The notes beneath the pieces were generated by a model. That model saw only the letters and a list, made by a program, of their open reading frames with translations, had not been told where the DNA came from and searched no databases. From a virus, in IMG/VR virus record IMGVR_UViG_3300027754_000202, positions 1 to 39,981 of that record: DNA of 39,981 bases; one strand, 5' to 3'. A program made the position numbers and the translations under genes. Below are positions 17,142-39,494 of the stretch, one piece after another; position 1 is the first letter of the stretch, and each line of letters opens with the position of its first letter.

Positions 17142-17147
17142 TAAATA
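17140..17147 (+). promoter_or_regulatory. Late-promoter-like motif (ACTAAATA), plus strand
   Basis: C-TAAATA type late motif, four bases before the ATG at 17152. It would drive the strand-flipped block of six + strand genes from a leaderless start. It overlaps the presumed GTG of the divergent gene. Confidence 0.45.
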
Positions 17148-17151
17148 TCTG

Positions 17152-23166: not shown

Positions 23167-23843
23167 GTTCTCTGTTGGCAATGGTCTGTGAGTGAGCGTT
23201 CGGCATGCCAATGTTCATTCATTGGTGTATCTCTGAATTCATCAAAGCAAGGTGTACCTAGTGTGTAGTGCAACAATTTGGCATCTGGGTTTGGCCCATA
23301 TTCGTCCGGCAACCAGTTCCATTCTTTGGGCAACTCGCCTAGGCGTTCATCCGCTATCCAGGAAAAACGATGTAGGAATGCGCCTGTTGAGTTTTGCACA
23401 AACTCAGGATCAAGATGTCTATTGCGTATGGCATTGCAATTCCATAATATCACACTAGACCAGTTTTTACGTGGGTAATCTTCGTTTGGACTGCCCAGAT
23501 ACTTTTCTTTCATTCGTGTCTTGTAGTCGTGCTTGACTACCATGGCATCTTTGCTGTATTCTCTGAGATTCCAAAGTTCAGTGATATCGCCACGTACGAT
23601 CATGTCTCCGTCTATAAAAATAGCCCATCCTTGATAATCCATCAGGTGAGGTACTAAGAAACGTGTGTAGATGAAGTGATTGCTGCCATCTGTGTGTGTT
23701 TCGGCGTAGTCTTTGAATAGGTTCAAAGCTACAGGTACTATAGCAACCGGACTGGTGCTGTTGCGTATGATTGAATTTGCGCAGGTATGATAGGCTATGG
23801 CTTCTCTGGGATCATATCCTACAAAAACAGGAATTGGTTTCAT
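23163..23843 (-). CDS. Glycosyltransferase, GT8-like, 226 aa
   Basis: Begins PIPVFVGYDPREAIAYHTC, the nucleotide-binding strand and helix of GT8-type transferases. IYTRFLVPHLMDYQG precedes the metal-binding AIFIDGDMIV (D78-G-D80), and a late LLHYTLGTPCFDEF provides the usual C-terminal histidine. It would transfer a hexose from a nucleotide sugar. A perfect TATAAATA late motif ends five bases before the ATG, with no Shine-Dalgarno, so a leaderless late transcript is expected. It starts a minus-strand transcript running through the two capsule-like paralogs. Confidence 0.85.
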   Translation of the reverse strand: MKPIPVFVGYDPREAIAYHTCANSIIRNSTSPVAIVPVALNLFKDYAETHTDGSNHFIYTRFLVPHLMDYQGWAIFIDGDMIVRGDITELWNLREYSKDAMVVKHDYKTRMKEKYLGSPNEDYPRKNWSSVILWNCNAIRNRHLDPEFVQNSTGAFLHRFSWIADERLGELPKEWNWLPDEYGPNPDAKLLHYTLGTPCFDEFRDTPMNEHWHAERSLTDHCQQRT

Positions 23844-23864: not shown

Positions 23865-24317
23865 TTACACCGTGATATCTTCCATGCCTGCTGTTCTTAG
23901 TCGTACCACATGCCCCATCTGCCATTGTTTGGTATCCAGGCCTTTCATGATACCCAGCCATCGATTGCGCAGGTATGCTACTTCATTGATGATAGTTTCA
24001 TAATCAATCACTTCATCTTCGCCGTCCACGTACTTTTCTGCATCTCTACTGGTCAAGGCTCGGGCATAGCCTTCCAGATACTTTTGAAAGTGTTTCCGGC
24101 GTATCTTGCGTAGCTGGATGTTGAGATAGTTTAACACAGCTTCAATCTCTTGAAGCTGGTTAAATCGTTGCTCAGTGATTCCTGGTAATGCGGTGATATT
24201 TTTTTCTACTACACCGCCGATCTTGCAGTCCTTTTTGGCATCCTCAAGCTCACGCTCGTAGTGAGTTATAAAGTCTGGAATAGAACTTAAACTAGCAGTT
24301 ACACGACTATACCACAT
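23865..24317 (-). CDS. uvsY: Possible recombination mediator (UvsY-like), 150 aa
   Basis: A small, highly charged helical protein. Its second half, HFQKYLEGYARALTSRDAEK, then a loop, then IINEVAYLRNRWLGIMKGL and a final TKQWQMGHVVRLRTAG, has the length, helix order and C-terminal Q/I-x-N/G-VV-LR pattern I associate with UvsY proteins of T4-like phages. UvsY loads UvsX onto gp32-coated ssDNA, and both partners lie a few kilobases upstream. The ATG overlaps the radical SAM stop by 11 bases. Confidence is moderate, since UvsY sequences diverge strongly. Confidence 0.5.
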   Translation of the reverse strand: MWYSRVTASLSSIPDFITHYERELEDAKKDCKIGGVVEKNITALPGITEQRFNQLQEIEAVLNYLNIQLRKIRRKHFQKYLEGYARALTSRDAEKYVDGEDEVIDYETIINEVAYLRNRWLGIMKGLDTKQWQMGHVVRLRTAGMEDITV

Positions 24318-25572
24318 TTTGAATTTTGTTTTCTATAAAATATTGATCGATATGAGGAAACAATTTTTTCCAATCGGTGTTTCGCCTGTGGTCGATCATG
24401 TCTAGTGTAGCACGAAGTTTGGCCAGGCGCGACCTGTCAGGTTTTGCTGAAGCTATCATCATGTTTATACCTATTAGGCGTTTTTGCATTTCTACATCCC
24501 ATTTGGTTGTTATTGGGAAGTGTTTTACAAGTTCATCTAATTTAGATTTAAAAAAAGATCCACCGAACATGTCTGGATGGAATATTTCCTCTTGCCCGCT
24601 ATCAACCACATGATAGCCTTGAGTAATTTTTGGATTTTGGATTTTGTATTCTGCAATGCGTGACTGTAGATCTAAGGTGGTATTGATGCTCAACGACGTG
24701 ATCACATGATGTACTGAGATTTCTAACCATTTGTGTTGTACAAGATATTCAAAATTTTCTTGCCAGCGAGCAAGATCCAACCCATTTCTAATAAATTCTG
24801 CTTGTGGTCCCCAACAATCCAAGCTAGCATCAATGTGTATTTTTTTTATATTTTTGTTAACTAATAAATCTTTACCAATTTCTACAAAACGCTTTACAAC
24901 ATCCAGACGAGAATTCAGATTGGTATTAATGGCGATGGTTAAATTTCTATTTTGTTTTGTTGATATCATCTCCAAAATAGTCCACAGCTCTTTTTGTAAC
25001 AGTGGTTCTCCGCCTAAGATGCTGATCTGGTCCAGCTGTTGATAGTTGTGGTCAACCCAGTTTAACCAAGCAGCAAAATATTTTTCCCTGTCAGGAATTT
25101 GAGATTTAGAAACAATCCCAATAGGGTACGCACCGTATTTTTTAAGTTCTTCGTTTATTCTTGAACTAAATTCTGGCAAACAATAAACACAGGCTAGATC
25201 GCATGTGTTGGTCAGAAACAACTCAACAATACGAGGCGTAACCTTTTGATCTCCGGCAGGATCAAAGTCTACAGGTGTCAATCCTGGTATATTATTATGA
25301 TAAGTTCTATCGCTTGTGCCGCCCTGTTGTTCGACGTTTTTGCAATATTCGCAGCCGCGGCCGGCCTTGGGCCACTGACCGGCTAGCATTTTCTGCCTAT
25401 CGTCTAAGACTTCGGGAGTATTGTGAAAATTATCAAACTGATCAAGTGGTATCTTGACAGCTTTTACTCTGTGACAACTGCCCGAAGTTGCGTCATACAA
25501 TCTAAATGTGTTCCAAGTCCATTTAAATACGCAGGCGGCATCATTGACAATAGGAAACACGTTGCCGTGCAT
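24307..25572 (-). CDS. Radical SAM protein with N-terminal twitch-type cysteines, 421 aa
   Basis: The radical SAM core has CDLACVYC (C124-x3-C128-x2-C131), the [4Fe-4S]/SAM binding motif, and GGEPLLQK about 65 residues later. Extra cysteines lie before the core (C14, C33, and GCEYCKNVEQ with C74 and C77), as in the N-terminal twitch radical SAM class known from phages. They probably bind an auxiliary cluster. The substrate is unknown. Two paralogs sit at 35.4 and 37.1 kb. The gene is coupled to the acidic protein gene upstream (TAATG) and to the UvsY-like gene downstream, so it is embedded in a recombination operon. Confidence 0.85.
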   Translation of the reverse strand: MHGNVFPIVNDAACVFKWTWNTFRLYDATSGSCHRVKAVKIPLDQFDNFHNTPEVLDDRQKMLAGQWPKAGRGCEYCKNVEQQGGTSDRTYHNNIPGLTPVDFDPAGDQKVTPRIVELFLTNTCDLACVYCLPEFSSRINEELKKYGAYPIGIVSKSQIPDREKYFAAWLNWVDHNYQQLDQISILGGEPLLQKELWTILEMISTKQNRNLTIAINTNLNSRLDVVKRFVEIGKDLLVNKNIKKIHIDASLDCWGPQAEFIRNGLDLARWQENFEYLVQHKWLEISVHHVITSLSINTTLDLQSRIAEYKIQNPKITQGYHVVDSGQEEIFHPDMFGGSFFKSKLDELVKHFPITTKWDVEMQKRLIGINMMIASAKPDRSRLAKLRATLDMIDHRRNTDWKKLFPHIDQYFIENKIQNVV

Positions 25573-25838
25573 TAGTTTTCCCAGTCGTCGGCGTGGTAAT
25601 CTTCTTCTTCCTCTTCCTCGGCATCTTCCTCATAGGATTTGTCGTTGTCAAGATACGCTGTAAGAGCTCGTTTGATATCAGAGTCACCCTTGAATGTGTC
25701 TTTGATGTCATCCACATCACAGTCGTTGTCAATCAAGATAGCCACCACGGTTTCTGCTGCTTCATCTCGATCCACTGTGTTTACATACCGTTTGAGTTCT
25801 GACCACATCTCACTGGCCACTGCCACTGCTTCATTCAT
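25572..25838 (-). CDS. Small acidic protein next to uvsX, 88 aa
   Basis: An N-terminal helical part (NEAVAVASEMWSELKRYVNT), then a DDIKDTFKGDSDIKRALTAY segment and a strongly acidic tail with a run of six glutamates interrupted by Asp and Tyr. DNA-mimic-like acidity and the position directly after uvsX suggest a partner or regulator of recombination proteins, but no family is recognised. The start at 25838 overlaps the uvsX stop by 4 bases and has GAGGAGG upstream. A longer in-frame ORF from 25910 would lie inside uvsX and is not preferred. Confidence 0.65.
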   Translation of the reverse strand: MNEAVAVASEMWSELKRYVNTVDRDEAAETVVAILIDNDCDVDDIKDTFKGDSDIKRALTAYLDNDKSYEEDAEEEEEEDYHADDWEN

Positions 25839-26890
25839 TCTGCTGCCTCCTCGATGGTACTTACCTCTTCTTTGTGATTTCCAAAGTCTGCCATAGCACG
25901 ATCCAAACACCCTTCCTCATTGGCTTCCCACTTCTTGCGGAACTTCTTGATGATCTCGCCGTCGCTGGTCACAAATACTAGGCTGTTGCCTTCCTTCTTC
26001 AAGAGACTGCGTTTCTCCATGAGATCCACCATACCCGAGTAAGGGCTCATTCCTGTTGTGTACGGAATCTTGACTTGTACTCCTTCAAAAGGTTTTGAGT
26101 ACCTTGTTTTCATCACTTTGCAAGCAGCGCGGATACCCATGACGTCAGAAATCTTGTTGCCATCCTCATCTTCTTTGAGCTTGAGTTTCTTCATGGCAAC
26201 CACAATACTACTGGCATAGATAAACCCTTGACCACCAGAGATCTTGTCGTCGGGGTCAAACATATCCTGACTGGCGTAGGTATGATTGGTACACACTAAT
26301 CCCACATTATATGAGCCAAACATGTTCACACAGTTACGCACAAGACTGGTTAGTGCCTTGGGCTTGCGACCCAGGTCGCCCTTCATCTCACCTGCATCAA
26401 ACTGATTCACGTCAGTGGGTGTGAGCAACATGCCCAAGCTGTCGATCACAAACATCACTTTAGGACGTTCGCCATCGGGCAAGGCCTTGTAGTCGCTCAT
26501 GAATGTACTGATGGTCTTGGCCACATCGTCGATCATGGCCATGCTGAGTTTAAGCAGCTTGTCCTGGCCAGTATCTACTCCCAATGCTCTAAGCCAGTTT
26601 TCATCCAATGCATTTTCGCTGTCAATCAGCACAACATATATGCCCTGTGCCTGAGCATTCTTTACAATGTTGCCGGAGCAGATGTAACTTTTACCTGCAC
26701 CCGAATCGCCGGCAAACACCGTGACCTTGCCTAGAGGAATACCTCGGTTGAAGTCTCCTGATATCAAGTAGTTCAAGGCATAGTTGCCTGTGCTGATCCA
26801 ATCTGTTGGATCATTGAAACCAATGCTCAATCCTTCGATCGACTTGGTGATTTCCTTGCGGAACTTGCTTACGTCAAATGGTTTTCCCAT
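25835..26890 (-). CDS. uvsX: UvsX, RecA-type recombinase
   Basis: ATP-dependent strand-exchange protein for recombination-driven replication and repair. Walker A is GDSGAGKS (61-68), then VVLIDSENALDENW, Walker B VMFVIDSLGML (145-155), DNA-binding loop region GDLGRKPKALTSLVRN, and CTNHTYASQDMF leading into GGQGFIYASSIVVAM. The length of 351 aa is close to T4 UvsX (391 aa), and the C terminus is acidic. The ATG at 26890 follows GAAAGAAAC; a TTG five codons upstream is in frame. Confidence 0.94.
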   Translation of the reverse strand: MGKPFDVSKFRKEITKSIEGLSIGFNDPTDWISTGNYALNYLISGDFNRGIPLGKVTVFAGDSGAGKSYICSGNIVKNAQAQGIYVVLIDSENALDENWLRALGVDTGQDKLLKLSMAMIDDVAKTISTFMSDYKALPDGERPKVMFVIDSLGMLLTPTDVNQFDAGEMKGDLGRKPKALTSLVRNCVNMFGSYNVGLVCTNHTYASQDMFDPDDKISGGQGFIYASSIVVAMKKLKLKEDEDGNKISDVMGIRAACKVMKTRYSKPFEGVQVKIPYTTGMSPYSGMVDLMEKRSLLKKEGNSLVFVTSDGEIIKKFRKKWEANEEGCLDRAMADFGNHKEEVSTIEEAAE

Positions 26891-26901
26891 GATAGTTTCT
26901 T

Positions 26902-27810
26902 TCAATGTAAAATAATGCTGGCAGAATTGTCGGCCTGTGAGTTATTATAAAGTATTCTGCGATACTGTGTCAAGTGTTTATCTAGATCAATCACGTTGGC
27001 CACAGGAATCTGATTGGCCATGGGTCGTCGATCATGCCGATCACACCATGCCAAAAACTCTGGACTAAATGCCACAGTCTCGGGTTGTTGTAGGCTAAGG
27101 TTAAATGAATATTCCAAAGTCTCATAGTTGTAGTGATCCATGCAATCAAGATCCATGTCAAAATATTCAAACTTGTTATAAAGTTGCCGACCCACATAGG
27201 TATATCCAAATGTGAAGTTCATCCGATCTGGATTACTGACCATGGATGTTTTTCGAAATGGATTATCAAAAATTTCCCATTTGCCGACAGCATTGAACTC
27301 GACGTTGTTGGTAAAAACGGATTCCAATCTATGAACAGCCATGTTCACATCTTCATATGGAAAAATCTTTCCTAGATGTTGCATAGCCACTGCTAATCTT
27401 GTCTCCGATATTTCATCAGAGAACTGATTGTGTAGTTGTTCTCCTAGCCTAGCAGTATTTGAGTTTTGACTGAATCTCAGTTCATGTACCTGTACTTTGT
27501 GATTTTGTGAAAATACCCATTTAGCATGTATGCGATTAAGCAGACTTTGATCCAGATATGTTTCTAGATTGTCCGACTGTGGAAATTTAATACCCACAAG
27601 GTCCCACAGAATTTCGTTGGTATTCGACAATGCCCAGTGGAGATCAGTTAATCCTTTGTTGACTTTTTGTGCCACCAGTTGATGGTCAGAAAATCTGTTC
27701 TGATTTTGACTGCTGGATTTATCTACAAAAAATTCAAACAACTCATAATTGTACTTTACCTCAAAAGGTATAGTATCACCTGTATTCTCAAATACCAAAG
27801 AAAATTTCAT
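26902..27810 (-). CDS. Unknown phage protein between gp32 and uvsX, 302 aa
   Basis: Begins MKFSLVFENTGDTIPFEVKY and is a mixed alpha/beta protein rich in Asn, Gln and aromatic residues. No motif is recognised (DMDLDCMDHYNYETLEY contains clustered acidic residues but no known catalytic pattern). The start at 27810 is preferred to an upstream in-frame ATG inside the hairpin. A perfect 10-bp hairpin lies 10 bases before the ATG, and no Shine-Dalgarno is visible. Location between gp32 and UvsX suggests a conserved middle-time function, but nothing specific can be said. Confidence 0.6.
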   Translation of the reverse strand: MKFSLVFENTGDTIPFEVKYNYELFEFFVDKSSSQNQNRFSDHQLVAQKVNKGLTDLHWALSNTNEILWDLVGIKFPQSDNLETYLDQSLLNRIHAKWVFSQNHKVQVHELRFSQNSNTARLGEQLHNQFSDEISETRLAVAMQHLGKIFPYEDVNMAVHRLESVFTNNVEFNAVGKWEIFDNPFRKTSMVSNPDRMNFTFGYTYVGRQLYNKFEYFDMDLDCMDHYNYETLEYSFNLSLQQPETVAFSPEFLAWCDRHDRRPMANQIPVANVIDLDKHLTQYRRILYNNSQADNSASIILH

Positions 27811-27820
27811 AATAGATAGA

Positions 27821-27845
27821 CGCAAGCACCGCAAAGGTGCTTGCG
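27821..27845 (-). terminator. Perfect 10-bp hairpin between gp32 and the 302-aa gene
   Basis: CGCAAGCACC pairs with GGTGCTTGCG around a 5-base loop. No T-run follows on either strand, so it is at best a partial terminator. It could also be an RNA processing site or block ribosome access to the ATG ten bases further on. Confidence 0.5.
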
Positions 27846-27856
27846 ATACCGGTCAA

Positions 27857-28840
27857 TTACTTGTTCTGACGACTGCGGATCATGGCCAGGATGTCCTGGG
27901 TTTTGCTTTCGCCGGCAGGCTTGCTGACTGGAGCAGTGGCCACTGCTGGCTCATCGTCAAAGTCATCGGCTGCTTTGGTAGGTGCTGCTACTCGCAAAGC
28001 CGGCTTGGCTGTTTCTTCATCCACATCAACAGCAGGTGCTGCGCCGGCAGGTGCATTCACACCAGCCGGGCGGAAGTACTGACCCCAACGCTCTGTGTCG
28101 TAAGGCTGTCCATCCACTGAAGCTTCAAACATTTCCTTGATCACACGCAGTTCCACATCAGTGGGCTTTTTAGGCAAGAATGTGTTCAAGTCAAACAGGC
28201 CATGTGCATCCACTGCTGCCTGTTCCACATCAGTCAATGCAGACTCTTTACGGGCCCACTTGCTGCTGTTGTAGTCAGCGAATCCACCTTTTTGTGTTTT
28301 GCTGATACGGAAGTCCAGGCCGCTCATGTAGTCAGTTGGCAGGTTTTCCAACTCAGGATCCATCAGGGCACCCTTGATCAAGGTGAACAGCTGAGGTCCA
28401 ATGATGAACTTGCGAATGGGATTTTCCGGAGTCTTGTCGTCTGCGATAGGATTCTCACGCACAAATCCTTGAAAGATGTAGCTGCGTTTCTTCCAGTATT
28501 TGCGACCCATGTCTTCAAGGCTCTTGTCCTTGAACCAGGTACGCACTTCTGCCAAGATTGGACAAGCGTCGCCCCACATCTCCACGCAGGGTACCTGCAC
28601 CATGACCTGTTTGGAATCCATCTCTCCTTTGATGCCATTGAATGGCAGTCGGATCATGGCTCGTTCCACCCAGAAGAATGTGTTCTTTGAATTGCCGTCG
28701 GGTAAAAAGCGCAAAGTGGCTGATTGACCTTCTTCCATGTTCCAATGTGGATAGATGGATCTGTCACCGCCTCCGGTGGATTGCCCACCTTTGTTCTCTG
28801 CTGCTTGTAGTCGTGCTCTGATTTCTGCTAAAGTTGCCAT
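27857..28840 (-). CDS. 32: Single-stranded DNA-binding protein, gp32 type
   Basis: Coats ssDNA at replication forks and recombination intermediates and organises UvsX, UvsY and the primosome. The N-terminal segment MATLAEIRARLQAA matches the cooperativity region in position. The OB-fold core spans about 30-215 (SIYPHWNMEEGQSATLRFLP, FFWVERAMIRLPF, VPCVEMWGDACPILAE, IFQGFVREN, FIIGPQLFTLIKGAL). A Pro/Ala linker and an acidic region (DDFDDEP) end in a helical tail. Two cysteines (in PCVEMWGDAC) recall part of the T4 zinc site, which is not complete. AAAGG lies 11 bases before the ATG. Confidence 0.93.
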   Translation of the reverse strand: MATLAEIRARLQAAENKGGQSTGGGDRSIYPHWNMEEGQSATLRFLPDGNSKNTFFWVERAMIRLPFNGIKGEMDSKQVMVQVPCVEMWGDACPILAEVRTWFKDKSLEDMGRKYWKKRSYIFQGFVRENPIADDKTPENPIRKFIIGPQLFTLIKGALMDPELENLPTDYMSGLDFRISKTQKGGFADYNSSKWARKESALTDVEQAAVDAHGLFDLNTFLPKKPTDVELRVIKEMFEASVDGQPYDTERWGQYFRPAGVNAPAGAAPAVDVDEETAKPALRVAAPTKAADDFDDEPAVATAPVSKPAGESKTQDILAMIRSRQNK

Positions 28841-28914
28841 ATTGTGTTGCCTTTCTATGCTTTAATATGATTAAAAATATTTAAGATGTACTTAAATGTG
28901 TTGCCTACAAGGTT

Positions 28915-28937
28915 ATTATACACAGCCTTGTCTGTGT
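28915..28937 (-). promoter_or_regulatory. Possible gp32 promoter with operator-like palindrome
   Basis: Minus-strand TATAAT at 28915-28920 lies about 75 bases before the gp32 ATG and has no recognisable -35 box. Directly upstream lies a dyad, ACACAG-N6-CTGTGT (28920-28937), that overlaps the promoter. An activator-dependent middle promoter is an attractive reading. The leader (28841-28914) is A/T-rich and contains GGCAACACA twice, which might serve gp32 autoregulation as in T4. Confidence 0.4.
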
Positions 28938-28982
28938 TTGCTACCTTTACGATAGCGAAATTTGCCTATCTAGTTGATTACG

Positions 28983-29008
28983 GAAGTGTGTGCCACTGCA
29001 CACACTTC
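28983..29008. terminator. Perfect 11-bp hairpin between the 1355-aa gene and gp32
   Basis: GAAGTGTGTGC and its exact complement flank a 4-base loop. A T-rich tract (TTTTGTTTGTTTT) follows only on the plus strand, so it looks like a plus-strand terminator. On the minus strand it could stop or stabilise the late mRNA ending at 29029. No other gene is seen in 28841-29028. Confidence 0.6.
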
Positions 29009-29028
29009 TTTTGTTTGTTTTATTTATG

Positions 29029-32000
29029 TTATCTCAGCATAGCCAAGGATTTTATTCTTGCCAGCAATGCATCACCTTCTCGTGATTCGTAATTGATAGA
29101 ACGTCCAGCTTCGCCAGGTGCATGCACAAATTCCGAATCTGCTGATGCGCCTGCTCGGCCAAGACGTGCTGTTTCGGCATCGCTTTGATCCGGCTCGTCG
29201 TCACGTTGCATAGCAAAGGCATCTGGATTGTTGGGATTGATCAACATGTGAGCCAGAGCAGGATCAACATTTGGATTCCTCAACCGGCCAAGACGTGCTG
29301 TTTCTGCACTGCTTTGATCTGCATCATCATAGTCGTAGTAGTTGTATCCACCTTGACCCGAATGTGCCTGACCTTTGGGCTCTTCTTCCTGATAGTCGTA
29401 ACCTTGCTGGCCATCGTGTGCAGCGCCCGGTGTGCTGAATGATGGCGTCGGTGCTGGTTCCCAAGGAGTCTTGCCTTGACCAACTTGTGCTGCTGCTAGT
29501 GCAGCATTGGATTTGCCCAATGCAGAACGATCGCCTGCTTGCAGAGCTTTGCCCAATCCTGCCAAGTGAGCAAGATGTTCAGGCGATCCAAAATCCTTTG
29601 GGATTTCAGGATTCATCATGTCTGCTTCATCTATGCCATAAGCGTTCTTGAACAGGTCCTGATTGCCTTGCATGCTATTTTGTGCGTCGATAGCTGCACC
29701 TTTGCTTTTTTGTGCTCTAGTGTAGCCGGTCGGCGAGTAGTCGTTTGGCATGGCATCTCTTTGAAACTGGCCAAATCCTTTTTGAACATTCTGATCATGA
29801 TTGAAAGACTTGAGTAGGTCTGTATCTGACTGTGATGTCCATGGAGTATCAGGATACCGTTTGTTCCAGACTTTCATGTTTCCTTGTTCCTGATTGCGGG
29901 CTGCCTGTAGCAAAGGATAATCAGGGTGCCCTGGAGATATTTTTGTGATCATATCCTTCACAGCATTTGCTGCCTTACCACCTAATTCACCTGCGCCTCG
30001 GAGTGCTGCACCCATACCTGGCATGCCGCCTTCATCCATGGGTTCGTCTTGTGTGCGGCCAACACCATCTACACGGATACGAGGAATTTGTTTGCCGTCG
30101 GTATCGATTACATAGTTTTGAAAATATTGTCGGCCTTGATCATCAACTTCATCTGGTAAATCTGTTGCAGTGATCTTGGCACCAGGAACTGGCTTGGCCA
30201 CTGCTGTGGAAGTTCGAGGAGTAGGAGTACGTGGTGGTATTGGCCTAGATTGAGCACCAATTAATCGAGGCTCGTCTTGACCAGTCTGCGTTTCCCAGTC
30301 ACTTATTCTTTTTGCCCGATCATTGTCGGCTTGTGAGCGAGTGGCATCTCGAGGAGTAGGAGTACGTGGTGGTATTGGCCTAGATTGAGCACCAATTAAT
30401 CGAGGCTCGTCTTGACCAGTCTGCGTTTCCCAGTCACTTATTCTTTTTGCCCGATCATTGTCGGCCGCTGAGCGTGTGGCATCAACAAAATCTGGATGCG
30501 CAAAATAACCAGCTTTCCCATCATACTGACCTGGTGTATCTGGACCGCGTTTAAAAACTTTCGTGCCCATGGCTCGCACTTTTCCGCCCGGTGGGCCCGA
30601 GATAGCAGAATCCTCATCCAGGTCTTCAATCAGTCGAGAGCCTGTGGCCAGGATGCTGAGATTCATTTCTTCCAACCAGCACTCTTTCAGGCCATGCACA
30701 GGGCAGTATTCATTTTCCATGGTGTAGTTGCACTCTTCCAAGGGCGCACTTTCTTCCAGGCCGGCAGACATATCAATACGCAGCACGCCGTTTGAATCAT
30801 AATACCCTGATGCACCAGTTGTGTTGCCAGGCGTGGTGTCGGGCATGTCTTGGCGCATGCGTTCTATCCTGTCTTTTTGATTTTGCGTTTGCTGATCTCG
30901 GGTAATCTCGGCTTGCAAGGACGGGGAAAGCATGGAAAAAGGATCAGATTTACTAGTTGCCGTTGGTACTGCTGGTGTTAATATTCCTGCATTCTGTCTA
31001 ACAGTGGCCAATGCGTCTATTGGGTTGTCTTTGTAAATATAGTCCTGCTGTGGCATTGACTGCTGACCGGTCAGGTCAAGGGCACCAACACGGCGAGCAT
31101 CCGGGGAGGCTAATGGTGTGGCAGTGACCGGAAATCCTTTAGGATTACGACGCATTATTTCGGACTGGGGCTGAGCCTCATCAACCATTGCCTCGCCAAC
31201 TATGCCGCCAAGGCATTCATCCACTATGGGATGACCCTGCATGTCATCGTAGAATCGATCACCAATCCATTCGTGTGGATCACCGGTGCGAGCTTTTTTC
31301 ACACCGTAAGGCATGGCATCAAAATAGTAGTCATACAATTCATCATACAAGTGATCACTCATGCTGCCGTGTTTGATAAAATCTCTAACGTCTTCTTGAT
31401 AAGTCTGTATGATATGACCCAATGTGCTTCCGCTGTCATTCAATGCATTTTCTGCCAAGGGCACACCAGCCAGGCTGGCCATGCGTCGCAGGCTTTCAAA
31501 GGCGGCGATGTTGTCGGCCTCGGCCATGCCTTGATTTACTTTGTTCCAGTTGTCGTCAAACCCGTATTTTTTTTTCTGCCATTCGTTGGGTGGCTGTCTA
31601 GGTTCTAAAATTGCATATATTTCATCTGCTCTGTCATTGAGTTGTTTAATTCTTGCTTTGGCCTGCATTTTTTCTTCGTTTGATTTGCTATTATACTGTA
31701 AATCAACCAGACTTTTAATTTCACGATGCAAGTCCATGTACTCTTGTTTAAGTTCGTCTCGTTGTGGATCACCGCTTGGCTCCATTGGTGGCATTTCAAC
31801 GTCCGGAGCACCTGGAAAGCCAGCCTCCGCCATTGCCTGCTGTGGTTGAGCATCCATATCTGGTTCAGCACGGTCAGGCATCTGTATGCCCAGTTCTTGC
31901 ATTCTGGCCTGCACCACAGAGTCGTCCCATAAGTTGGCACGTGGATCTTGTGCAGCCAACTCGCTGATGCGATCAAACAACAGATCATCTCCCACAAGAT

Positions 32001-33096
32001 CATACAATTGTTCTGTGGCGTTGGTACCATCCGGTCCCACGATCAATTCGCTGCTCATAAGCTCTTTGAGCTTGTTCAGTTGTTCAGGAGTTTCGGGCAG
32101 GCTCCAGGTACCTTCTGCTAAGGTGTTCATCCAGTTTTCAAATATGTCAGCTTCTTTCATTTCACGTCCTCGTTGTATTTTTGCCAACAGCGGTAGAGCT
32201 TGCTCAATCCTGTTGTCAATGGTCTGTTCTACGAACAGTGTTTTGATATCTTCTACCAATTGGTCTTGTTCTGTAATGTCTGCAGGATGCCAAGATTCAA
32301 AGTAAGCACTATAGCCACGTGGGCCGGATAGTCGCTTGATGCTTTCTCTCAAGGACTTGTAGTAGATTTGCGCACCTTCTACCACACCTTGTTTGACGCC
32401 TTCCAACACACGCCCTTGGCTAGCACGGTTAAAACGTGCGAGAACCTTGAGTTCTGTGATCATTTCGCAAATGTGATTGCCACGCACATCATAGGGCTTG
32501 CCACCTTGACGCACATGTTCTAACATGGCTCTGCCGCCTGCTAGATTGACGAATGGCAGTCGATATCGTTCACCATCTGCTGTTTCCACAAAGATGCTTT
32601 CCACATAACGGAAACGTGCATCATTCTCGCCTAGATTACGATTGTGTCGGATCATCAACCTTGCTTCAGTAGGCTCACCGGCGTAGCTGATTCTGCGTGT
32701 GCCGTAGTAGCCTTCGAACAGGCCTTCTTTGATGGCTGCTAGACCTTGCATGGTGTACTTGAGCTTGCTTATGTCATCGCCGGTGTAGGTCCAACGATGG
32801 GCATTGGCAAATTGGCTCAGTTGTTGTTGGAATTCAAACCATTCGTTTTTGTCCTGGTCTTCCATGCCGCGGCCTAGATTGTTACCAAACATGGCTTTCA
32901 AGTCATTACCCACGTCCAGTATGATTACCATGGTACCGTAGTTTTTACCACTGGCAGCAGTGTAATCGATTTTGAATAGTTTGGCATCTTTTGGCTCGCA
33001 TCCGTCGTTGCCCGCTGCGTCCCGTAATTCCGGGTCGTATCCGCGGGTGACCAGTAGGTCATTCAGTTGCTGAGCGATATTGTTGTCTTGTGCCAT
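29029..33096 (-). CDS. Large virion-type protein with tandem repeats, 1355 aa
   Basis: The longest gene. Residues 1-250 look globular and conserved (GDDISKLKYTMQGL, EARLMIRHNRNLGENDARFR, LPFVNLAGGRAMLEHVRQGG). The middle is helical and charged, and the C-terminal third is low-complexity (Gly/Pro/Gln/Asp/Tyr). A cysteine/histidine cluster (C-x8-C-x2-H-x5-C, with EYCPVHGLKEC) near residue 785 could bind zinc. Residues 871-960 are a 45-residue unit repeated twice. DQS(S/D)AETARLGR occurs twice near the end. Several L-x-E sites fit prohead-protease cleavage. It is next to the terminase and has a C-TAAATA late motif 7 bases before the ATG. A structural or packaged role is inferred. Confidence 0.7.
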   Translation of the reverse strand: MAQDNNIAQQLNDLLVTRGYDPELRDAAGNDGCEPKDAKLFKIDYTAASGKNYGTMVIILDVGNDLKAMFGNNLGRGMEDQDKNEWFEFQQQLSQFANAHRWTYTGDDISKLKYTMQGLAAIKEGLFEGYYGTRRISYAGEPTEARLMIRHNRNLGENDARFRYVESIFVETADGERYRLPFVNLAGGRAMLEHVRQGGKPYDVRGNHICEMITELKVLARFNRASQGRVLEGVKQGVVEGAQIYYKSLRESIKRLSGPRGYSAYFESWHPADITEQDQLVEDIKTLFVEQTIDNRIEQALPLLAKIQRGREMKEADIFENWMNTLAEGTWSLPETPEQLNKLKELMSSELIVGPDGTNATEQLYDLVGDDLLFDRISELAAQDPRANLWDDSVVQARMQELGIQMPDRAEPDMDAQPQQAMAEAGFPGAPDVEMPPMEPSGDPQRDELKQEYMDLHREIKSLVDLQYNSKSNEEKMQAKARIKQLNDRADEIYAILEPRQPPNEWQKKKYGFDDNWNKVNQGMAEADNIAAFESLRRMASLAGVPLAENALNDSGSTLGHIIQTYQEDVRDFIKHGSMSDHLYDELYDYYFDAMPYGVKKARTGDPHEWIGDRFYDDMQGHPIVDECLGGIVGEAMVDEAQPQSEIMRRNPKGFPVTATPLASPDARRVGALDLTGQQSMPQQDYIYKDNPIDALATVRQNAGILTPAVPTATSKSDPFSMLSPSLQAEITRDQQTQNQKDRIERMRQDMPDTTPGNTTGASGYYDSNGVLRIDMSAGLEESAPLEECNYTMENEYCPVHGLKECWLEEMNLSILATGSRLIEDLDEDSAISGPPGGKVRAMGTKVFKRGPDTPGQYDGKAGYFAHPDFVDATRSAADNDRAKRISDWETQTGQDEPRLIGAQSRPIPPRTPTPRDATRSQADNDRAKRISDWETQTGQDEPRLIGAQSRPIPPRTPTPRTSTAVAKPVPGAKITATDLPDEVDDQGRQYFQNYVIDTDGKQIPRIRVDGVGRTQDEPMDEGGMPGMGAALRGAGELGGKAANAVKDMITKISPGHPDYPLLQAARNQEQGNMKVWNKRYPDTPWTSQSDTDLLKSFNHDQNVQKGFGQFQRDAMPNDYSPTGYTRAQKSKGAAIDAQNSMQGNQDLFKNAYGIDEADMMNPEIPKDFGSPEHLAHLAGLGKALQAGDRSALGKSNAALAAAQVGQGKTPWEPAPTPSFSTPGAAHDGQQGYDYQEEEPKGQAHSGQGGYNYYDYDDADQSSAETARLGRLRNPNVDPALAHMLINPNNPDAFAMQRDDEPDQSDAETARLGRAGASADSEFVHAPGEAGRSINYESREGDALLARIKSLAMLR
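30215..30484 (-). repeat. 135-bp direct tandem duplication in the 1355-aa gene
   Basis: Copies 30215-30349 and 30350-30484. The first 116 bases are identical by reading and the differences lie at the end of the unit. Each encodes a 45-residue unit containing DATRS-ADNDRAKRISDWE and ending PIPPRTPTPR. The high identity points to recent duplication. Confidence 0.9.
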
Positions 33097-33103
33097 GATT
33101 GTT

Positions 33104-33111
33104 TATTTAGT
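33104..33111 (-). promoter_or_regulatory. Late-promoter-like motif (ACTAAATA), 1355-aa gene
   Basis: C-TAAATA type late motif, seven bases before the ATG at 33096, predicting a leader of no more than about two bases. No Shine-Dalgarno is seen. Confidence 0.45.
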
Positions 33112-33112
33112 T

Positions 33113-34696
33113 TCAACGCATGATTGATATAAATGGCATGGGTTCGATTATGACATCGCCATGATCCTTGAGATGTGTGTCTAACTCCACATGATATGTC
33201 TGTAACATCACCAACATACGCACAGCTAGCAATGTGGCCATGACCAAATCATCGGTTTCTCCGGGCTTGGCAGCAAAGCTAGTGCCATGTGCCACAAATG
33301 TTTTGAGCTCGGAAATCAGCGGCGAACTTTGGATTTTCATCCTGCCGGACTCGATCAGGATCTTGGCCTTGTTGCAGGCCATGATTTTGCTTTTGTTTGT
33401 GGTAGTAAAACCCTTGCGGATCCTGCGTCCGGCTGTGCCTTGCACTGAGTTGTCGCTGAGGAAATAGCCCGGAATGTTTTCTTCGCCGTATTCTGCAATA
33501 GATATCAATGCTGCTTCACCCAGTGTGTTGTTTTCCACTGAGTAGTAGATCTTGCTGGCATCTTTTACTACTGCATTGATTTCTTTGATGATGTCCACTA
33601 GTATTTTAACTTGGGTGGGCACATCTGTACGATCATGCCGCCATTCAGCCACCTGTATGGTGGTTTCGGCTTCAATCACCTGTATGGCACTAGGGTCGCC
33701 GCCGGTGCCCAGGCTGGGATCCAAGGCCACAATGTACATCTTGTCCTTGCTGGGTTCTTTGTACCAGCGCACCTGCCCAGTTTTACGCAGCGGCTCGCGC
33801 CCTTCAAGATCCAATAATTTAATTGGAGAGATTAATGTTTCATCATTGATAACAAATTCACAATTCATCTCGCGGCGGAAACGATCTTCACCTAGTGCTG
33901 CACGTTGTTGATCGGCCCAGGCATCATCACGATCAGGATGCTCATTCCAGTAGCTGCGGAATGCTCTGAATCCATTGGTGCCCAACACAGTTTGATTGCC
34001 GTATTCGTCTACGGTTTTGTTGGCACCTTTCCACAAGAACGCAAACTGATCTTCGTCTGAGTTGGGAGTGCTTGTGATAATGGCTTTACCACCTGTGGCC
34101 AGTGTGGGCGATATTGAAGTCCAGAATTCTTTGGCAATGGTTGGACGAACAAATGCAAACTCGTCGCAGTACAGCAGCGAAATACTCATACCACGACCGG
34201 TATTTTCTGTAGTGGTAGCACTGACAATACGACTACCATTGTCAAATTCCAAACTGCCTTTGTTGTAGCTGGTGGCACCTGCACGTATGTGATTGGGGCA
34301 CAGCTCGTACGCATAGCGAATACGTTGCATGATCTCCTGAGCACCTGTGTATTTGTGTGCAGCAATCAACACAGTGGAGTCTGGCACAAACATGGCGTAC
34401 CACAACAAATAACCAGCAGCCGACGTCGATTTGCCTGTTTGTCGCGGCATCATGCTGATGCTGTATCTGTAGTTGTGGTAGGTATCAATCAGTCTGGTTT
34501 GATATTCAAAAGGAGAATATCGCATCTTGCCACGTATGGGATGTTGGATGTGAAAAAAATGATCCATGAAGTACAATGGACCGGTTACAGGATCAGCACA
34601 CAGCATGAATTCTGTGATCTCTTGTTCGGTGTAGGTCTCGCGACGATGCGGAGCCTTGACCAACACGGTTTCTAAATTATTTTTTGGCAATATCAT
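33113..34696 (-). CDS. 17: Large terminase subunit, gp17 type
   Basis: The DNA-packaging motor and head-full nuclease. ATPase domain: adenine-binding FEYQTRLID, Walker A MPRQTGKS (83-90), Walker B LLYCDE (174-179) and coupling motif IITSTPNSDED. Nuclease domain: MYIVALDPSLGTGGD (D326), SVENNTLGEAAL and the C-terminal GETDDLVMA carrying further metal-binding acids. The 527-aa length fits the family (T4 gp17 is 610 aa). The ATG overlaps the stop of the SGNH gene by 20 bases. Confidence 0.95.
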   Translation of the reverse strand: MILPKNNLETVLVKAPHRRETYTEQEITEFMLCADPVTGPLYFMDHFFHIQHPIRGKMRYSPFEYQTRLIDTYHNYRYSISMMPRQTGKSTSAAGYLLWYAMFVPDSTVLIAAHKYTGAQEIMQRIRYAYELCPNHIRAGATSYNKGSLEFDNGSRIVSATTTENTGRGMSISLLYCDEFAFVRPTIAKEFWTSISPTLATGGKAIITSTPNSDEDQFAFLWKGANKTVDEYGNQTVLGTNGFRAFRSYWNEHPDRDDAWADQQRAALGEDRFRREMNCEFVINDETLISPIKLLDLEGREPLRKTGQVRWYKEPSKDKMYIVALDPSLGTGGDPSAIQVIEAETTIQVAEWRHDRTDVPTQVKILVDIIKEINAVVKDASKIYYSVENNTLGEAALISIAEYGEENIPGYFLSDNSVQGTAGRRIRKGFTTTNKSKIMACNKAKILIESGRMKIQSSPLISELKTFVAHGTSFAAKPGETDDLVMATLLAVRMLVMLQTYHVELDTHLKDHGDVIIEPMPFISIMR

Positions 34697-35438
34697 CTAT
34701 TATCTTTTCTGCAAACAGCCTATGGCCCCGGGGTCCAGCATGCATACGATCTCTTGCGTATTCTACTTCTTCACGACTTTTAGCAAACCAATCATGTGCG
34801 TTGTAGGTCAAACACTTGATCCCCAGTTCAGCACATAGTCCTTGCACAGCCAATCGGTTGCGCGAGTTATTTAACTCTGCGTTGCGGTCATTTAAAAACC
34901 AATTCTTGACAAAATCATTGGTTTCAGTTTGTCCCGACTCATGCCCGGGCATGTATGTTTCATGTGGCAACTGCCGGTCTTCGGTTATGAGATCAAATCT
35001 ATGCCGGGGCGGTGCTGCCATCACTACCCATCGGGGTCGTAATACCGGTAGCCAATAGCTGGCCAACATAAAACAGGTATCTGCGCTGAATCCGGGCCAG
35101 GCCAGATTGTAGTTTTTCAATCCTGTGGCCCGTGATACCAAATATGACCAGGTAGCGGTTTCCGGCAGACCAACACCAGCTGTGTAACTGCATCCTAAAG
35201 ACACCATGCTGGCAGCAGCAGGATCAAATTCTTCTGATCTGAATCCGTTGCTGTTTATACGATAGGTTATGGCTCCCGGTTCAAGCCATCCTTTGCTGCG
35301 GAAATATTCGTGAAACTCTGGATTATGATCCAGTTGGCGGAAATTCTCTTCTGTGTCGGTGGGCAACCACGCTATGGTTTGTGCAGCATACTTCATGCCA
35401 AAATGCCAAGGCGCTTTAGTTTTCATTTGCATTCTCAT
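34677..35438 (-). CDS. SGNH-hydrolase-like esterase, 253 aa
   Basis: VSLGCSYTAGVGLPE (79-93) is block I, with S84 as the candidate nucleophile (GCS in place of GDS). NYNLAWPGFSADT supplies the glycine block, and the C-terminal DRMHAGPRGH gives the DxxH dyad (D230, H233). SGNH enzymes remove acetyl or acyl groups from carbohydrates or lipids, so modification of a surface glycan is plausible. It is coupled between a radical SAM gene (23-base overlap) and the terminase gene. Confidence 0.7.
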   Translation of the reverse strand: MRMQMKTKAPWHFGMKYAAQTIAWLPTDTEENFRQLDHNPEFHEYFRSKGWLEPGAITYRINSNGFRSEEFDPAAASMVSLGCSYTAGVGLPETATWSYLVSRATGLKNYNLAWPGFSADTCFMLASYWLPVLRPRWVVMAAPPRHRFDLITEDRQLPHETYMPGHESGQTETNDFVKNWFLNDRNAELNNSRNRLAVQGLCAELGIKCLTYNAHDWFAKSREEVEYARDRMHAGPRGHRLFAEKIIDDIAKK

Positions 35439-36591
35439 TTAATATAGTTGCCATTGCGGGCCATAGATCCGCAAAGCTGACTGATTTTTTTAGCAATACC
35501 TCGGTCTCGGTGTGCCAGGTCACAGTGCGTTTTGCGATACCATCTTGATGTTTGATATAACTAGGATCTGCCAAAGTATGTCTATAGCTTTTTAACACAT
35601 GAGTAGATAGATTAGTGCGATCATCATATTTGGCTATGATGCGATCTATCTCTTGTATGGCTAATTGTCGTAATTGTGCAGAATGTCGGCGGATGTCCAA
35701 TTCAACAGGATCGTTGAGTTCGCACCAATAGATTCCTAAATCTTCCTTATCACAAAATTCATAGTATTCTTCAAGATCCAATGCACAATAGATAGAATAA
35801 GCAGGATGGGCATTCACTCGCACACCATCTTGTTTCATCACACGTATATTTTTTACAAATTGCACCCAGTTAGCGCCGTTTCTAACATATTCAAATTTTT
35901 GCTCGTTGGCATTGTCAAAACTGATCTGCCATTCAACATCGGGCCAGGTACGCAACAATTGATAGACGGGATTTGCAGTGATGTCCATACTGAGATTTGT
36001 TGTGACCATCACACGTACTTTGTCAGGATTTAGATAACTTAAAAATGTATCTAGCCCTTTCTGTAACAGTGGTTCTCCGCCTCCAAGGCTGAGTCCTTGT
36101 ATGTTGTGCCCTTGTGTTTTTACCAGATCTATTAGATCCTCATGTTCGTTTTTTACATGGTTGATAGGTATCTTTCGAACACTCTGCCATGCTGTGGATG
36201 TTTGTGGATTGCAATACACACAGGTTAGATTGCATAAATTGCTCCAATTAACCACAAGATGTTCTAGTTTAAAAAAATCTGGATCTCGGTTGATCGATGC
36301 CAGGGTATCTTCACTCGCAATTCTCACAGTTCTTCCACTAGCGCCTGTAGTTTCTTCCAGTCTCTTGCACCAGCTGCATCCAGAATGCCACTCACCTTTT
36401 GCCATAGCCGTTCGCATATCAGTAACGATCGGACCGTGTATGATTTCTTGGATGGATGTTTTTTTGTTGTTGCCAATCATTTCCACACAATGAAAGCAAG
36501 GGCTCACCGCACCAGCTTGATTGATGTTGAGACTGGTCCAAGGTGCTGGACAGAATGTAGGACTATCTGAAATCATTTTGCTATCAACCAT
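35416..36591 (-). CDS. Radical SAM protein, N-terminal twitch type, 391 aa
   Basis: N-terminal TFCPAPWTSLNINQAGAVSP and CFHC (C14, C32, C35), then HSGCSWCKRLEE (C72, C75) for an auxiliary cluster. The radical SAM motif is CNLTCVYC (C120, C124, C127), and GGEPLLQK lies in the barrel. The conserved cysteine layout is shared with the other two radical SAM proteins here. The substrate is unknown; a peptide or nucleotide-sugar modification is possible. The ATG at 36591 overlaps the oxygenase gene by 19 bases; an internal ATG at 36576 gives an ATGA overlap and is an alternative. Confidence 0.85.
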   Translation of the reverse strand: MVDSKMISDSPTFCPAPWTSLNINQAGAVSPCFHCVEMIGNNKKTSIQEIIHGPIVTDMRTAMAKGEWHSGCSWCKRLEETTGASGRTVRIASEDTLASINRDPDFFKLEHLVVNWSNLCNLTCVYCNPQTSTAWQSVRKIPINHVKNEHEDLIDLVKTQGHNIQGLSLGGGEPLLQKGLDTFLSYLNPDKVRVMVTTNLSMDITANPVYQLLRTWPDVEWQISFDNANEQKFEYVRNGANWVQFVKNIRVMKQDGVRVNAHPAYSIYCALDLEEYYEFCDKEDLGIYWCELNDPVELDIRRHSAQLRQLAIQEIDRIIAKYDDRTNLSTHVLKSYRHTLADPSYIKHQDGIAKRTVTWHTETEVLLKKSVSFADLWPAMATILNENANEN

Positions 36592-37124
36592 GAATAAGAA
36601 CTCACTCTAAAGGAATCAGCAGGTACAGGAGTCAGCATGCCATGCCATTGTAATTTTCTGTAACCAGTTGTGTCAGGATTGTTTATCATGATGTATCCTG
36701 CATTTGCTACAACTTCAAATTGATGTCTTGGTGCGGCGGAATCTTTGTAATGATAAAATGCAGTACCGAGATTGTGACCGATCCATGTCATCTGCATGGC
36801 TCCGGGCATTTCTCCATCGGTGTGTATGCTGCAAATGAATCCCGGTTGATCTACCCACCAGGCTGTGCCTTGGTATTTCTCAATCGGGCTATCTAGTGTA
36901 GCACCAATATCGGGCCATAGTTCTTGACAACATTGATCCCATTCTTGATTCCACTCCAATGCTTGATTGTTGATCCGTCGTCTTGCCCAGTTTTCTTGGC
37001 CTTCTTGTGGTTGCCAAGGCAAATTCATCCAATCAGTCGTGAGTATTTTTTCCACTAGCGAATGTGGGAAAACATCCGTCACACGGAATAGATTGTGATC
37101 TTGATCGACTGCGGTTATTTGCAT
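36573..37124 (-). CDS. 2-oxoglutarate/Fe(II) oxygenase-like protein, 183 aa
   Basis: A double-stranded beta-helix oxygenase pattern: SIHTDGEMPGAMQMTWIG gives the H-x-D iron ligands (H101, D103), QWHGMLTPV gives the distal histidine (H161), and SFRVSSYSWL an arginine (R173) to hold 2-oxoglutarate. Such enzymes hydroxylate or demethylate proteins, nucleic acids or small molecules. Located between two radical SAM genes with overlaps on both sides, it may act on the same product. The start at 37124 is chosen; an in-frame ATG at 37145 would lengthen the overlap with the radical SAM gene to 31 bases. Confidence 0.72.
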   Translation of the reverse strand: MQITAVDQDHNLFRVTDVFPHSLVEKILTTDWMNLPWQPQEGQENWARRRINNQALEWNQEWDQCCQELWPDIGATLDSPIEKYQGTAWWVDQPGFICSIHTDGEMPGAMQMTWIGHNLGTAFYHYKDSAAPRHQFEVVANAGYIMINNPDTTGYRKLQWHGMLTPVPADSFRVSSYSWLIAK

Positions 37125-38257
37125 AGGTGCGCCAGTTCCGGCCATAATTGCACAAACTCACCTGTCTTGTCTGTGTGATACACCTGTTCAATGTCATGCA
37201 TGTGCTGTTGAAATTGCTTTGAAATCTCCGGATCAGATGATGTGATCTGTTGGTATGTGGCCAATGCTCGATCAAAAAATTGCTGTTCTGCCGACATAGC
37301 GATTCCCAATGCATAGAATCGTTTGATTTCATCAATGGCTGCGGCTGCAACTGCTGGTCCATGTAAAAATGGATCAAGATATCGTGGGTGGAACAAATTC
37401 TGCCAAAGCACGGTGGTGTTTGTTTCTTCGGCCAATTGTCTGAGCTCACAGATGCGTGTGGCATTGTAGATACTATACACAGCGTGGATTCCGCCATGAT
37501 GTCCCATGGTATCCATCAGCTGCCGGACCTTGAGAAGATTTTGTTTGACCATTGGCCAACTGGCCCCATGCCGTACATATTCCATCTGAGAGCCTGTATT
37601 GTCAAAGCTCATGCTCCACCCTACTCGATTGCGTGTGGATAATTTTTGGAATATCTTGTTGTTGTCTAGATCCACACTCAAGTTGGTGATCAAAGTGACC
37701 AGAGCATGCTTGGGTATCACATCCAACAAACGATCGTTCTCAGGAAGCAACAACGGTTCTCCGCCTACTAGTGCTACTTCGTGTATGTGTTCGTGATGCT
37801 GTGCCAAGAAGTCACAAACTGAATCATAGTATGATCTTGTGCCAGATTTGAACGGAATACCTTTGATACCGGCCCACTTTGAACTGCATGCTTCTCCGCA
37901 ATAGTTACAGCTGAGATTGCAAGTGGTGTTCCATCGCACATCCACAATAACAGGATAGTGATATTGGTCACCGGCTGTGGCATAATCAAAATTGGCATTG
38001 ACATTGTTATGCCATTGCCGTTCAGAGTTGGCACCAAATCTTTCTGCCTGCACACAATTGGAGCAATATTTGTGAGCAATACCTTGTGACAAGCTGTCAC
38101 GTATGCTTTTCATCTGACTGCCGTTGAGGATTTCTATTATGCCATGCTGATCGAGGTTTCCAAGAATATCTGGATCACCGGCACAGCAAGTTTTGACATT
38201 GCCTTGAGGGTTGATATGCAGCCCGCGCCATGGGGCTGCACAATAGAAATCGGTCAT
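37115..38257 (-). CDS. Radical SAM protein, N-terminal twitch type, 380 aa
   Basis: N-terminal FYCAAPWRGLHINPQGN (C6) and CC (24-25), then HKYCSNCVQAERFG (C65, C68). The radical SAM motif is CNLSCNYC (C113, C117, C120), and GGEPLLLPE lies in the barrel. Its architecture matches the other two paralogs. A late-promoter-like CGTAAATA ends four bases before the ATG and no Shine-Dalgarno is visible, so it heads a leaderless late transcript through the oxygenase, second radical SAM, SGNH and terminase genes. Confidence 0.86.
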   Translation of the reverse strand: MTDFYCAAPWRGLHINPQGNVKTCCAGDPDILGNLDQHGIIEILNGSQMKSIRDSLSQGIAHKYCSNCVQAERFGANSERQWHNNVNANFDYATAGDQYHYPVIVDVRWNTTCNLSCNYCGEACSSKWAGIKGIPFKSGTRSYYDSVCDFLAQHHEHIHEVALVGGEPLLLPENDRLLDVIPKHALVTLITNLSVDLDNNKIFQKLSTRNRVGWSMSFDNTGSQMEYVRHGASWPMVKQNLLKVRQLMDTMGHHGGIHAVYSIYNATRICELRQLAEETNTTVLWQNLFHPRYLDPFLHGPAVAAAAIDEIKRFYALGIAMSAEQQFFDRALATYQQITSSDPEISKQFQQHMHDIEQVYHTDKTGEFVQLWPELAHLCK

Positions 38258-39113: not shown

Positions 39114-39494
39114 TTAATAACCTTTGAAGGGCCGGACTGGGCTGGTGTGATTTACTGATGCAGGTTCTAAGCTGTTTGGCGTGCTTATTTGTACTTTTTT
39201 AGCAGGCAAGCCAGCCATTTTCAATGCTTGATCAATCACTGGTTCAACGCTGGCATTAAATCCTGCAATTACTGCATCTTCACCAAATGCTGCTTGTGCA
39301 GACCAGGCAGGTAGTTTGTCGGTGATGCCATCTGTTCCGGCATCACTTCTGGCACGGGCCATAGCCACACCCAGTCTGTAGATCTGATATGGGTCGCTGG
39401 ATTTTACTCCAGGCAACACAAACACATGATTCATGGGATCTGCTTGCTCCGGAGGTAAAGTTTTTTCTTCGGTTATAAACTCTCGAGCTCTCAT
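39114..39494 (-). CDS. Putative capsid-packaged protein with CTS-like N terminus, 126 aa
   Basis: The N terminus MRAREFITE|E closely resembles the capsid-targeting sequence of T4 internal proteins (MKTYQEFIAE), with an I-x-E site where a gp21-type protease would cut. The rest is a small helical domain (DPYQIYRLGVAMARARSDAG) that ends NHTSPVRPFKGY. It is paralogous to the protein encoded immediately upstream: same leader, same Y-x-L-x-R core and same SPV-F-GY tail. Being packaged in the head is inferred from the leader only. The ATG overlaps the previous stop by 4 bases. Confidence 0.65.
   Translation of the reverse strand: MRAREFITEEKTLPPEQADPMNHVFVLPGVKSSDPYQIYRLGVAMARARSDAGTDGITDKLPAWSAQAAFGEDAVIAGFNASVEPVIDQALKMAGLPAKKVQISTPNSLEPASVNHTSPVRPFKGY

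Follow-up and report, generated by a model that had tools for sequence, protein, structure and literature searches.

The window analysed here is a 39,981-base fragment of a viral contig (IMG/VR record IMGVR_UViG_3300027754_000202) from an aquatic-type phage, T4-like judging by its genes for terminase, UvsX, and UvsY. It encodes three radical S-adenosylmethionine (SAM) proteins with an N-terminal twitch domain (N-twitch proteins), here called rs1, rs2, and rs3 (Table 1). In related large phages, this family has expanded to six to ten clear copies per genome, and its members form subfamilies that track particular slots between core genes and have partner genes of their own, among them predicted 2-oxoglutarate (2OG)-Fe(II) oxygenases, glycosyltransferases, and further enzymes of sugar type. 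We put at about even the chance that rs1–rs3 belong to a modular, lineage-wide set of enzymes that makes or decorates a sugar-containing structure, i.e., a virion glycan, a nucleotide sugar, or a host surface polysaccharide.

The sequence-only reading of the window had proposed three N-terminal-twitch radical SAM paralogs sharing one cysteine plan. All three open reading frames (ORFs) are present and match the NF033640 (N_Twi_rSAM) profile over its full length at 203-214 bits, above the curated cut-off of 170 bits that we used for the family; rs1 is 23-24% identical to rs2 and rs3 over the full length. The CxxC motif (residues 74-77, 72-75, and 65-68 of rs1, rs2, and rs3, respectively), the CxxxCxxC motif (124/128/131, 120/124/127, and 113/117/120), and GGEPLL were found as proposed, but the early region contains two conserved cysteines rather than one (C14, C14, and C6, followed by C33, C32, and C24), so that four twitch cysteines precede the CxxxCxxC core in each protein. 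The second early cysteine is retained in 94/94 representatives of the divergent viral relatives, reduced to <75% identity, and the entire set of C14, C32, C72, and C75 of the twitch and C120, C124, and C127 of the core (rs2 numbering) in 93-94 of them; no loss of cluster cysteines was thus seen in these homologs. Ratios of nonsynonymous to synonymous substitution rates (dN/dS) of about 0.08-0.14, where unsaturated, show that rs2, rs3, and the adjacent oxygenase gene are under purifying selection, and comparisons for rs1 are saturated at synonymous sites.

The N-terminal region of the family profile (positions 11-82) aligns with the C-terminal twitch of BtrN (185-261, E 6e-8), the butirosin aminocyclitol dehydrogenase, which has a fully ligated auxiliary cluster (PMC6231123). 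The four-cysteine twitch is homologous in sequence, and a fully ligated auxiliary cluster is likewise predicted for rs1–rs3; unlike in BtrN, the twitch is N-terminal, and a sugar substrate is a proposal for these proteins. The viperin model NF038283 (cut-off 180) gives only 29.5-35 bits for rs1–rs3, and their scores with the QueE model are far under its cut-off. In rs2 and rs3, the SPASM model PF13186 gives a signal in the N-terminal region; however, the conserved cysteines outside the core number four, versus seven in the SPASM domain with its two auxiliary clusters, which places the proteins outside that class.

In the AlphaFold2 (AF2) model of rs2 (predicted local distance difference test, pLDDT, 94.6), the barrel is tied between BlsE (Z 14.6), DesII (14.2), SuiB, anSME, and viperin, and these ties between predicted and solved folds leave the substrate class of rs2 unfixed. 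BlsE and DesII act on sugar-nucleotide substrates. BtrN is not among the solved structures listed by VIA-align for this model, which carries no weight. Full-length matches to the fold occur among predicted proteins from uncultured Caudovirales, with weaker ones from Vibrio phage KVP40.

Table 1. Features of the window that bear on the three radical SAM genes.
Feature	Coordinates	Strand	Profile match and remarks
rs1, N-terminal-twitch radical SAM, uvsX–uvsY-slot subfamily	24307-25572	-	421 aa; NF033640 214.3 bits
rs2, N-terminal-twitch radical SAM, terL-slot subfamily 2	35416-36591	-	391 aa; NF033640 203.2 bits
rs3, N-terminal-twitch radical SAM, terL-slot subfamily 1	37115-38257	-	380 aa; NF033640 209.9 bits
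Predicted 2OG-Fe(II) oxygenase, prolyl-4-hydroxylase/PasI-like fold	36573-37145	-	190 residues; no curated family; overlaps rs3 and rs2
SGNH/GDSL-like hydrolase (weak)	34677-35438	-	PF13472 Lipase_GDSL_2 E 3.2e-4; overlaps rs2 and terL
Terminase large subunit (terL), core gene bounding the slot	33113-34696	-	PF03237 E 1.2e-16; phrog_36964 E 4.5e-112
UvsX-like recombinase, core gene at one edge of the rs1 slot	25835-26905	-	phrog_97 E 2.8e-68
g31, small acidic protein encoded next to rs1 on the uvsX side	25572-25910	-	kept at most sites without rs1
UvsY-like recombination mediator, core gene at the other edge of the rs1 slot	23865-24317	-	phrog_231 E 6.8e-14
GT8 glycosyltransferase, opening the sugar-type cluster that lies downstream of rs1–uvsY	23163-23843	-	PF01501 E 5e-9
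Glycan-type cluster	15583-23211	mixed	weak GT2-like, FkbM, other methyltransferases, weak DUF6716
FkbM methyltransferase	18793-19443		E 2.6e-19; in glycan-type cluster
DUF6716 glycosyltransferase-like (weak)	17988-18800		in glycan-type cluster
GT2-like gene (weak)	17134-17991		in glycan-type cluster

According to a tree of 163 N-twitch proteins (built by a quick method without a mixture model, its deep joins being provisional), the subfamilies track genomic position: slot labels change 20 times on the tree versus 90.6 times in shuffles, and random swapping of cassettes among slots is rejected. The N-twitch proteins of the terL slot form one group (support 98) consisting of two sister clades (98), that of rs2 with 11 proteins and that of rs3 with 17, each supported at 100. 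This group is joined to most proteins of the gp32–uvsX slot (support 98), and the uvsY-slot proteins fall mainly into two clades. On this tree, rs2 and rs3 have the appearance of an old tandem duplication, and rs1 is a separate lineage.

The position of rs1, embedded between uvsX and a uvsY-like gene as had been claimed, was confirmed: the gene lies between g31, which follows just after uvsX, and the UvsY gene, with an rs1/uvsY overlap of 11 bp. This slot holds exactly one N-twitch gene in 24 out of 71 sites and is empty in the other 47, one case without rs1 being the closest relative of the window (L096/L101/L113, terL 97% identical). Thus, the three radical SAM genes do not behave as a unit, and their treatment as a single co-inherited set is rejected by the split in subfamily and slot, by the 24/71 filling, and by the absence of rs1 in the closest relative.

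In the terL slot, rs3, the oxygenase gene, rs2, the SGNH-like gene, and terL overlap end to end (by 31, 19, 23, and 20 bp, respectively). The suggested coupling to an SGNH gene and the terminase stands as far as the overlaps go, but the hydrolase assignment is a weak resemblance only, with 21.7 bits versus a Pfam cut-off of 32.9. In 47 distinct complete sites, counted with terL as the independent anchor, rs3 is present in 35, the SGNH-like gene in 16, the oxygenase gene in 11, and rs2 in six. The expected conservation of partners holds in part: the oxygenase is always accompanied by rs3 (11/11), whereas rs2 and the oxygenase come and go among relatives and are optional members of the slot.

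The oxygenase has no match by sequence in Pfam, PHROG, NCBIfam, or PDB. Its AF2 model (pLDDT 90.7) is a double-stranded beta-helix, with a Foldseek match to prolyl-4-hydroxylase (P4H) at E 1.6e-5, and the HxD motif (H108, D110), H168, and R180 are invariant across 21 homologs, so that predicted fold and ligand residues agree in identifying gene 36573-37145, flanked by rs3 and rs2, as a 2OG-Fe(II) oxygenase, in line with the original proposal. The closest solved folds, namely, 9ei6 (PasI with octosyl-acid phosphate, Z 16.0), OGFOD1 (15.5), PolD (15.1), Tpa1, and prolyl-4-hydroxylases, are all tied.

With PasI at the top of these ties and PolD among them, the enzymes might modify nucleotides, producing octosyl-acid nucleosides or hypermodified phage DNA and so protecting the genome or making an inhibitor. 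Polyoxin biosynthesis, where the radical SAM enzyme PolH acts before the proposed 2OG enzymes PolD and PolK (PMC5365060), is a precedent for such a pair. The PolH–PolD/PolK and PasI systems resemble the one considered here in combining a radical SAM enzyme and a 2OG oxygenase in one pathway and in the oxygenase fold (Z 15-16); they differ in that the window's oxygenase is only about 10% identical to theirs and no octosyl-acid pathway genes were recognised in the window. The location of the slots among replication and packaging genes and the presence of BlsE and viperin among the barrel ties also agree with a nucleotide substrate. On the other hand, PasI lies within 1 Z of the prolyl hydroxylases, the QueE and viperin models score far under cut-off, and the window showed no set of genes for base modification. 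We consider this explanation quite unlikely.

The same ties to OGFOD1, Tpa1, and P4H, together with the closeness of the barrel sequence to SkfB, SuiB, and YydG, are what would be expected if a virion protein or an injected phage protein were modified by radical epimerisation or cross-linking and by prolyl-type hydroxylation. Two small paralogs, g42 and g43 (39114-39494 and 39491-39862, both on the minus strand), are encoded upstream of rs3 on the far side of a nuclease gene; they have a T4 capsid-targeting-like N-terminus, MRA[RS]EFI.E, and a near-invariant C-terminus, SP[VI]xxFxGY, and could be substrates. ORFs of this type with both ends number 97 in 62 loci, and we regard g42 and g43 as candidate internal head proteins. 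Their motif persists where rs3 is missing, as does g31 where rs1 is missing; g31, occurring with or without rs1, was rejected as the rs1 substrate. A small conserved substrate peptide, which the sequence-only reading had suggested looking for nearby, did not emerge, since the overlapping genes of the terL slot leave no intergenic space for a separate precursor gene and g31 is kept independently of rs1; a distant precursor or g42/g43 stay candidates. Besides, the N-terminal domain of rs1–rs3 is a twitch and not a recognition element of the kind found in ribosomally synthesized and post-translationally modified peptide (RiPP) enzymes, and the partner genes are mainly of sugar type. Modification of a protein or peptide is thus unlikely, although it is the foremost of the alternatives.

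The pairing of radical SAM and 2OG oxygenase chemistries recurs in a second slot. In relatives, the gp32–uvsX slot contains a sulfotransferase-like gene, a short N-twitch radical SAM gene, a 2OG-type oxygenase gene, a short-chain dehydrogenase/reductase (SDR) gene, and an N-twitch gene, followed by uvsX. The oxygenase family of this slot carries the 2OG signature H85xD87, H134, R147 (L005 numbering) and is unrelated in sequence to that of the terL slot; the occurrence of the pair at two slots with unrelated oxygenases is the best evidence for combined action of both chemistries. Against a background of 15% of genes, direct contact with an N-twitch gene was observed for 36/36 members of the SDR family, 34/35 sulfotransferase-like genes (a weak profile match, E 0.087), 12/13 and 30/40 members of the oxygenase families, and 42/111 fucosyltransferase-like genes (also weak, E 0.015), all counted in related phages sampled around radical SAM loci and thus not independent events. 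The fucosyltransferase-like family has no PHROG or Pfam match and one weak match in PDB. In the window, the gp32–uvsX slot is filled by g33 (26902-27834, minus strand), where many relatives have a radical SAM/oxygenase/SDR cassette.

These contacts bear on the possibility that the slots simply gather unrelated accessory genes, the radical SAM enzymes and the oxygenase acting separately. Variable regions between the core genes are a known feature of T4-like phages. On the terL tree (61 sites), rs2, the oxygenase, and the SGNH-like gene change eight, nine, and 15 times, respectively, and rs3 six times; tree-paired tests of their co-occurrence yielded no significant association, with too few informative pairs for significance, and the oxygenase never contradicts rs3. 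Such hitchhiking fits poorly with the SDR and sulfotransferase-like genes directly adjoining N-twitch genes in all or nearly all cases, with the constant presence of rs3 beside the oxygenase, and with overlapping genes and radical SAM–oxygenase cassettes in two slots, and we hold it to be the least probable of the explanations considered.

Further evidence for a sugar-containing product comes from genomes where N-twitch genes form arrays. Among the matches listed, copies above the cut-off number about ten each in G001, G008, and G015, nine in G017, the record of the closest relative, eight in G011, seven in G021, and six in G012, and these records have weaker ones in addition. In the G017 array, radical SAM genes are interleaved with a TEK-motif family weakly matching fucosyltransferase. 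In each of the seven records whose array is uncut, the genes just downstream of it include one carbamoyltransferase, one full-length DegT aminotransferase, and a nucleoside diphosphate (NDP)-sugar epimerase, joined in G017 by a PIG-L deacetylase and an amidinotransferase. Vibrio phage K566, from a distant lineage, has its N-twitch genes in alternation with two GT8 genes that pass the cut-off and a weak GT4-like gene. The case for a sugar cluster is best in the arrays and in the Vibrio phage; in the terL slot itself it is less strong.

Taken together, the conserved seven cysteines, the BtrN-like twitch, the barrel ties to BlsE and DesII, the GT8, FkbM, and methyltransferase genes near rs1, the partner enrichment, the sugar genes downstream of arrays, the GT8 genes of K566, and published reports of radical SAM genes alongside glycosyltransferases (PMC7029224, PMC7150976) are the reasons for which we prefer a sugar-containing structure as the product. 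In the mechanism that we propose, the CxxxCxxC cluster would cleave SAM to a 5'-deoxyadenosyl radical, which would abstract hydrogen from a sugar-like substrate, and the N-terminal twitch cluster, bound by four cysteines and, by prediction, fully ligated like that of BtrN, would take up an electron, giving chemistry of the dehydrogenation or epimerisation type. For the terL slot, we propose that the oxygenase next hydroxylates or oxidises this intermediate or the one after it, with the SGNH-like protein attaching or removing an acyl group; more generally, the radical step would be followed by 2OG oxidation and by esterase, SDR, or transferase steps. The data show directly the order and overlaps of the genes, the conservation of cysteines and 2OG ligands, the predicted folds, purifying selection, the slot-bound subfamilies, and the recurrent partner families; the substrate class, the order of reactions, and a role in surface or virion decoration, e.g., in altered adsorption or exclusion, are what we infer from them.

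Several observations weigh against this interpretation. rs2, rs3, and the oxygenase gene adjoin terL and the nuclease gene and not the sugar cluster, the SGNH call is weak, and the contact counts and two of the partner assignments have the limits given above. Sequence neighbours of the barrel in PDB include many peptide-modifying enzymes, and the structural ties of the oxygenase include peptidyl-prolyl hydroxylases. Finally, metagenome-assembled genomes (MAGs), mostly of Bdellovibrionota (L134-L146), contain tandem N-twitch genes that reach up to 373 bits to NF033640, above the window's three, without obvious sugar context. The broader claim that large T4-like phages possess a combinatorial system of slot-specific N-twitch enzymes with oxygenases, SDRs, transferases, and esterases that builds a phage-specific glycan or nucleoside-sugar by chemistry without precedent among known phages, and that N-twitch enzymes generally act on sugars, is possible but clearly short of probable.

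Radical SAM expansion in such phages is already known. A T4-like environmental genome has been reported with 12 radical SAM genes (PMC5332604), pelagimyophages have radical SAM cassettes together with glycosyltransferases in their host-recognition clusters (PMC7029224), and both kinds of gene are enriched in a virome from the Tasman Sea (PMC7150976). The accessible parts of the first two reports agree with our data in the many radical SAM genes per genome and the glycosyltransferases in the host-recognition cluster, but describe no N-twitch subfamilies, fixed slots, or partner cassettes (PMC5332604, PMC7029224). We found no earlier description of slot-specific N-twitch subfamilies with partner cassettes in the literature searched, subscription papers lying largely outside it, and the slots and dedicated partners appear to be new.

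Compared with NF033640, rs1–rs3 have the full-length match, the N-terminal twitch, and the same cysteines, but that family is named without a function, whereas here it is resolved into slot-specific phage subfamilies with dedicated partners. The fixed slots, the partners, and the high copy number per genome offer concrete candidates for the NF033640 substrate, and an N-twitch relative in Vibrio phage nt-1 (VPFG_00320, ORF138, one gene away from the glycosyltransferase-like ORF140), for which the laboratory species V. natriegens is recorded as host, opens the substrate question to experiment. A glycan substrate would mean that phages possess a radical route to novel sugars, displayed on virions or on host surfaces; a peptide or nucleotide substrate would mean an equally new modification of phage material.

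As for sampling, tblastn against the isolated-phage collection gave no match for rs1, rs2, or the oxygenase, and array members reach only distant matches there; the nearest isolate terminases, about 54% identical, are those of large Pseudomonas phages, e.g., PA5oct. A second contig of the viral collection (L004, 7783 bases) matches the window at 100% identity in the proteins that it covers and thus represents the same phage assembled twice. G020 (364404 bases) and G021 (220546 bases) have identical radical SAM scores and near-identical neighbourhoods, and G020 may be a larger assembly or a concatenation containing the same phage as G021. Elsewhere in the window, near a tail-type gene, lie two genes with no Pfam match (4398-5204 and 5167-5811, both on the minus strand), one of them SGNH-like by eye and the other with a start reminiscent of sulfotransferases.

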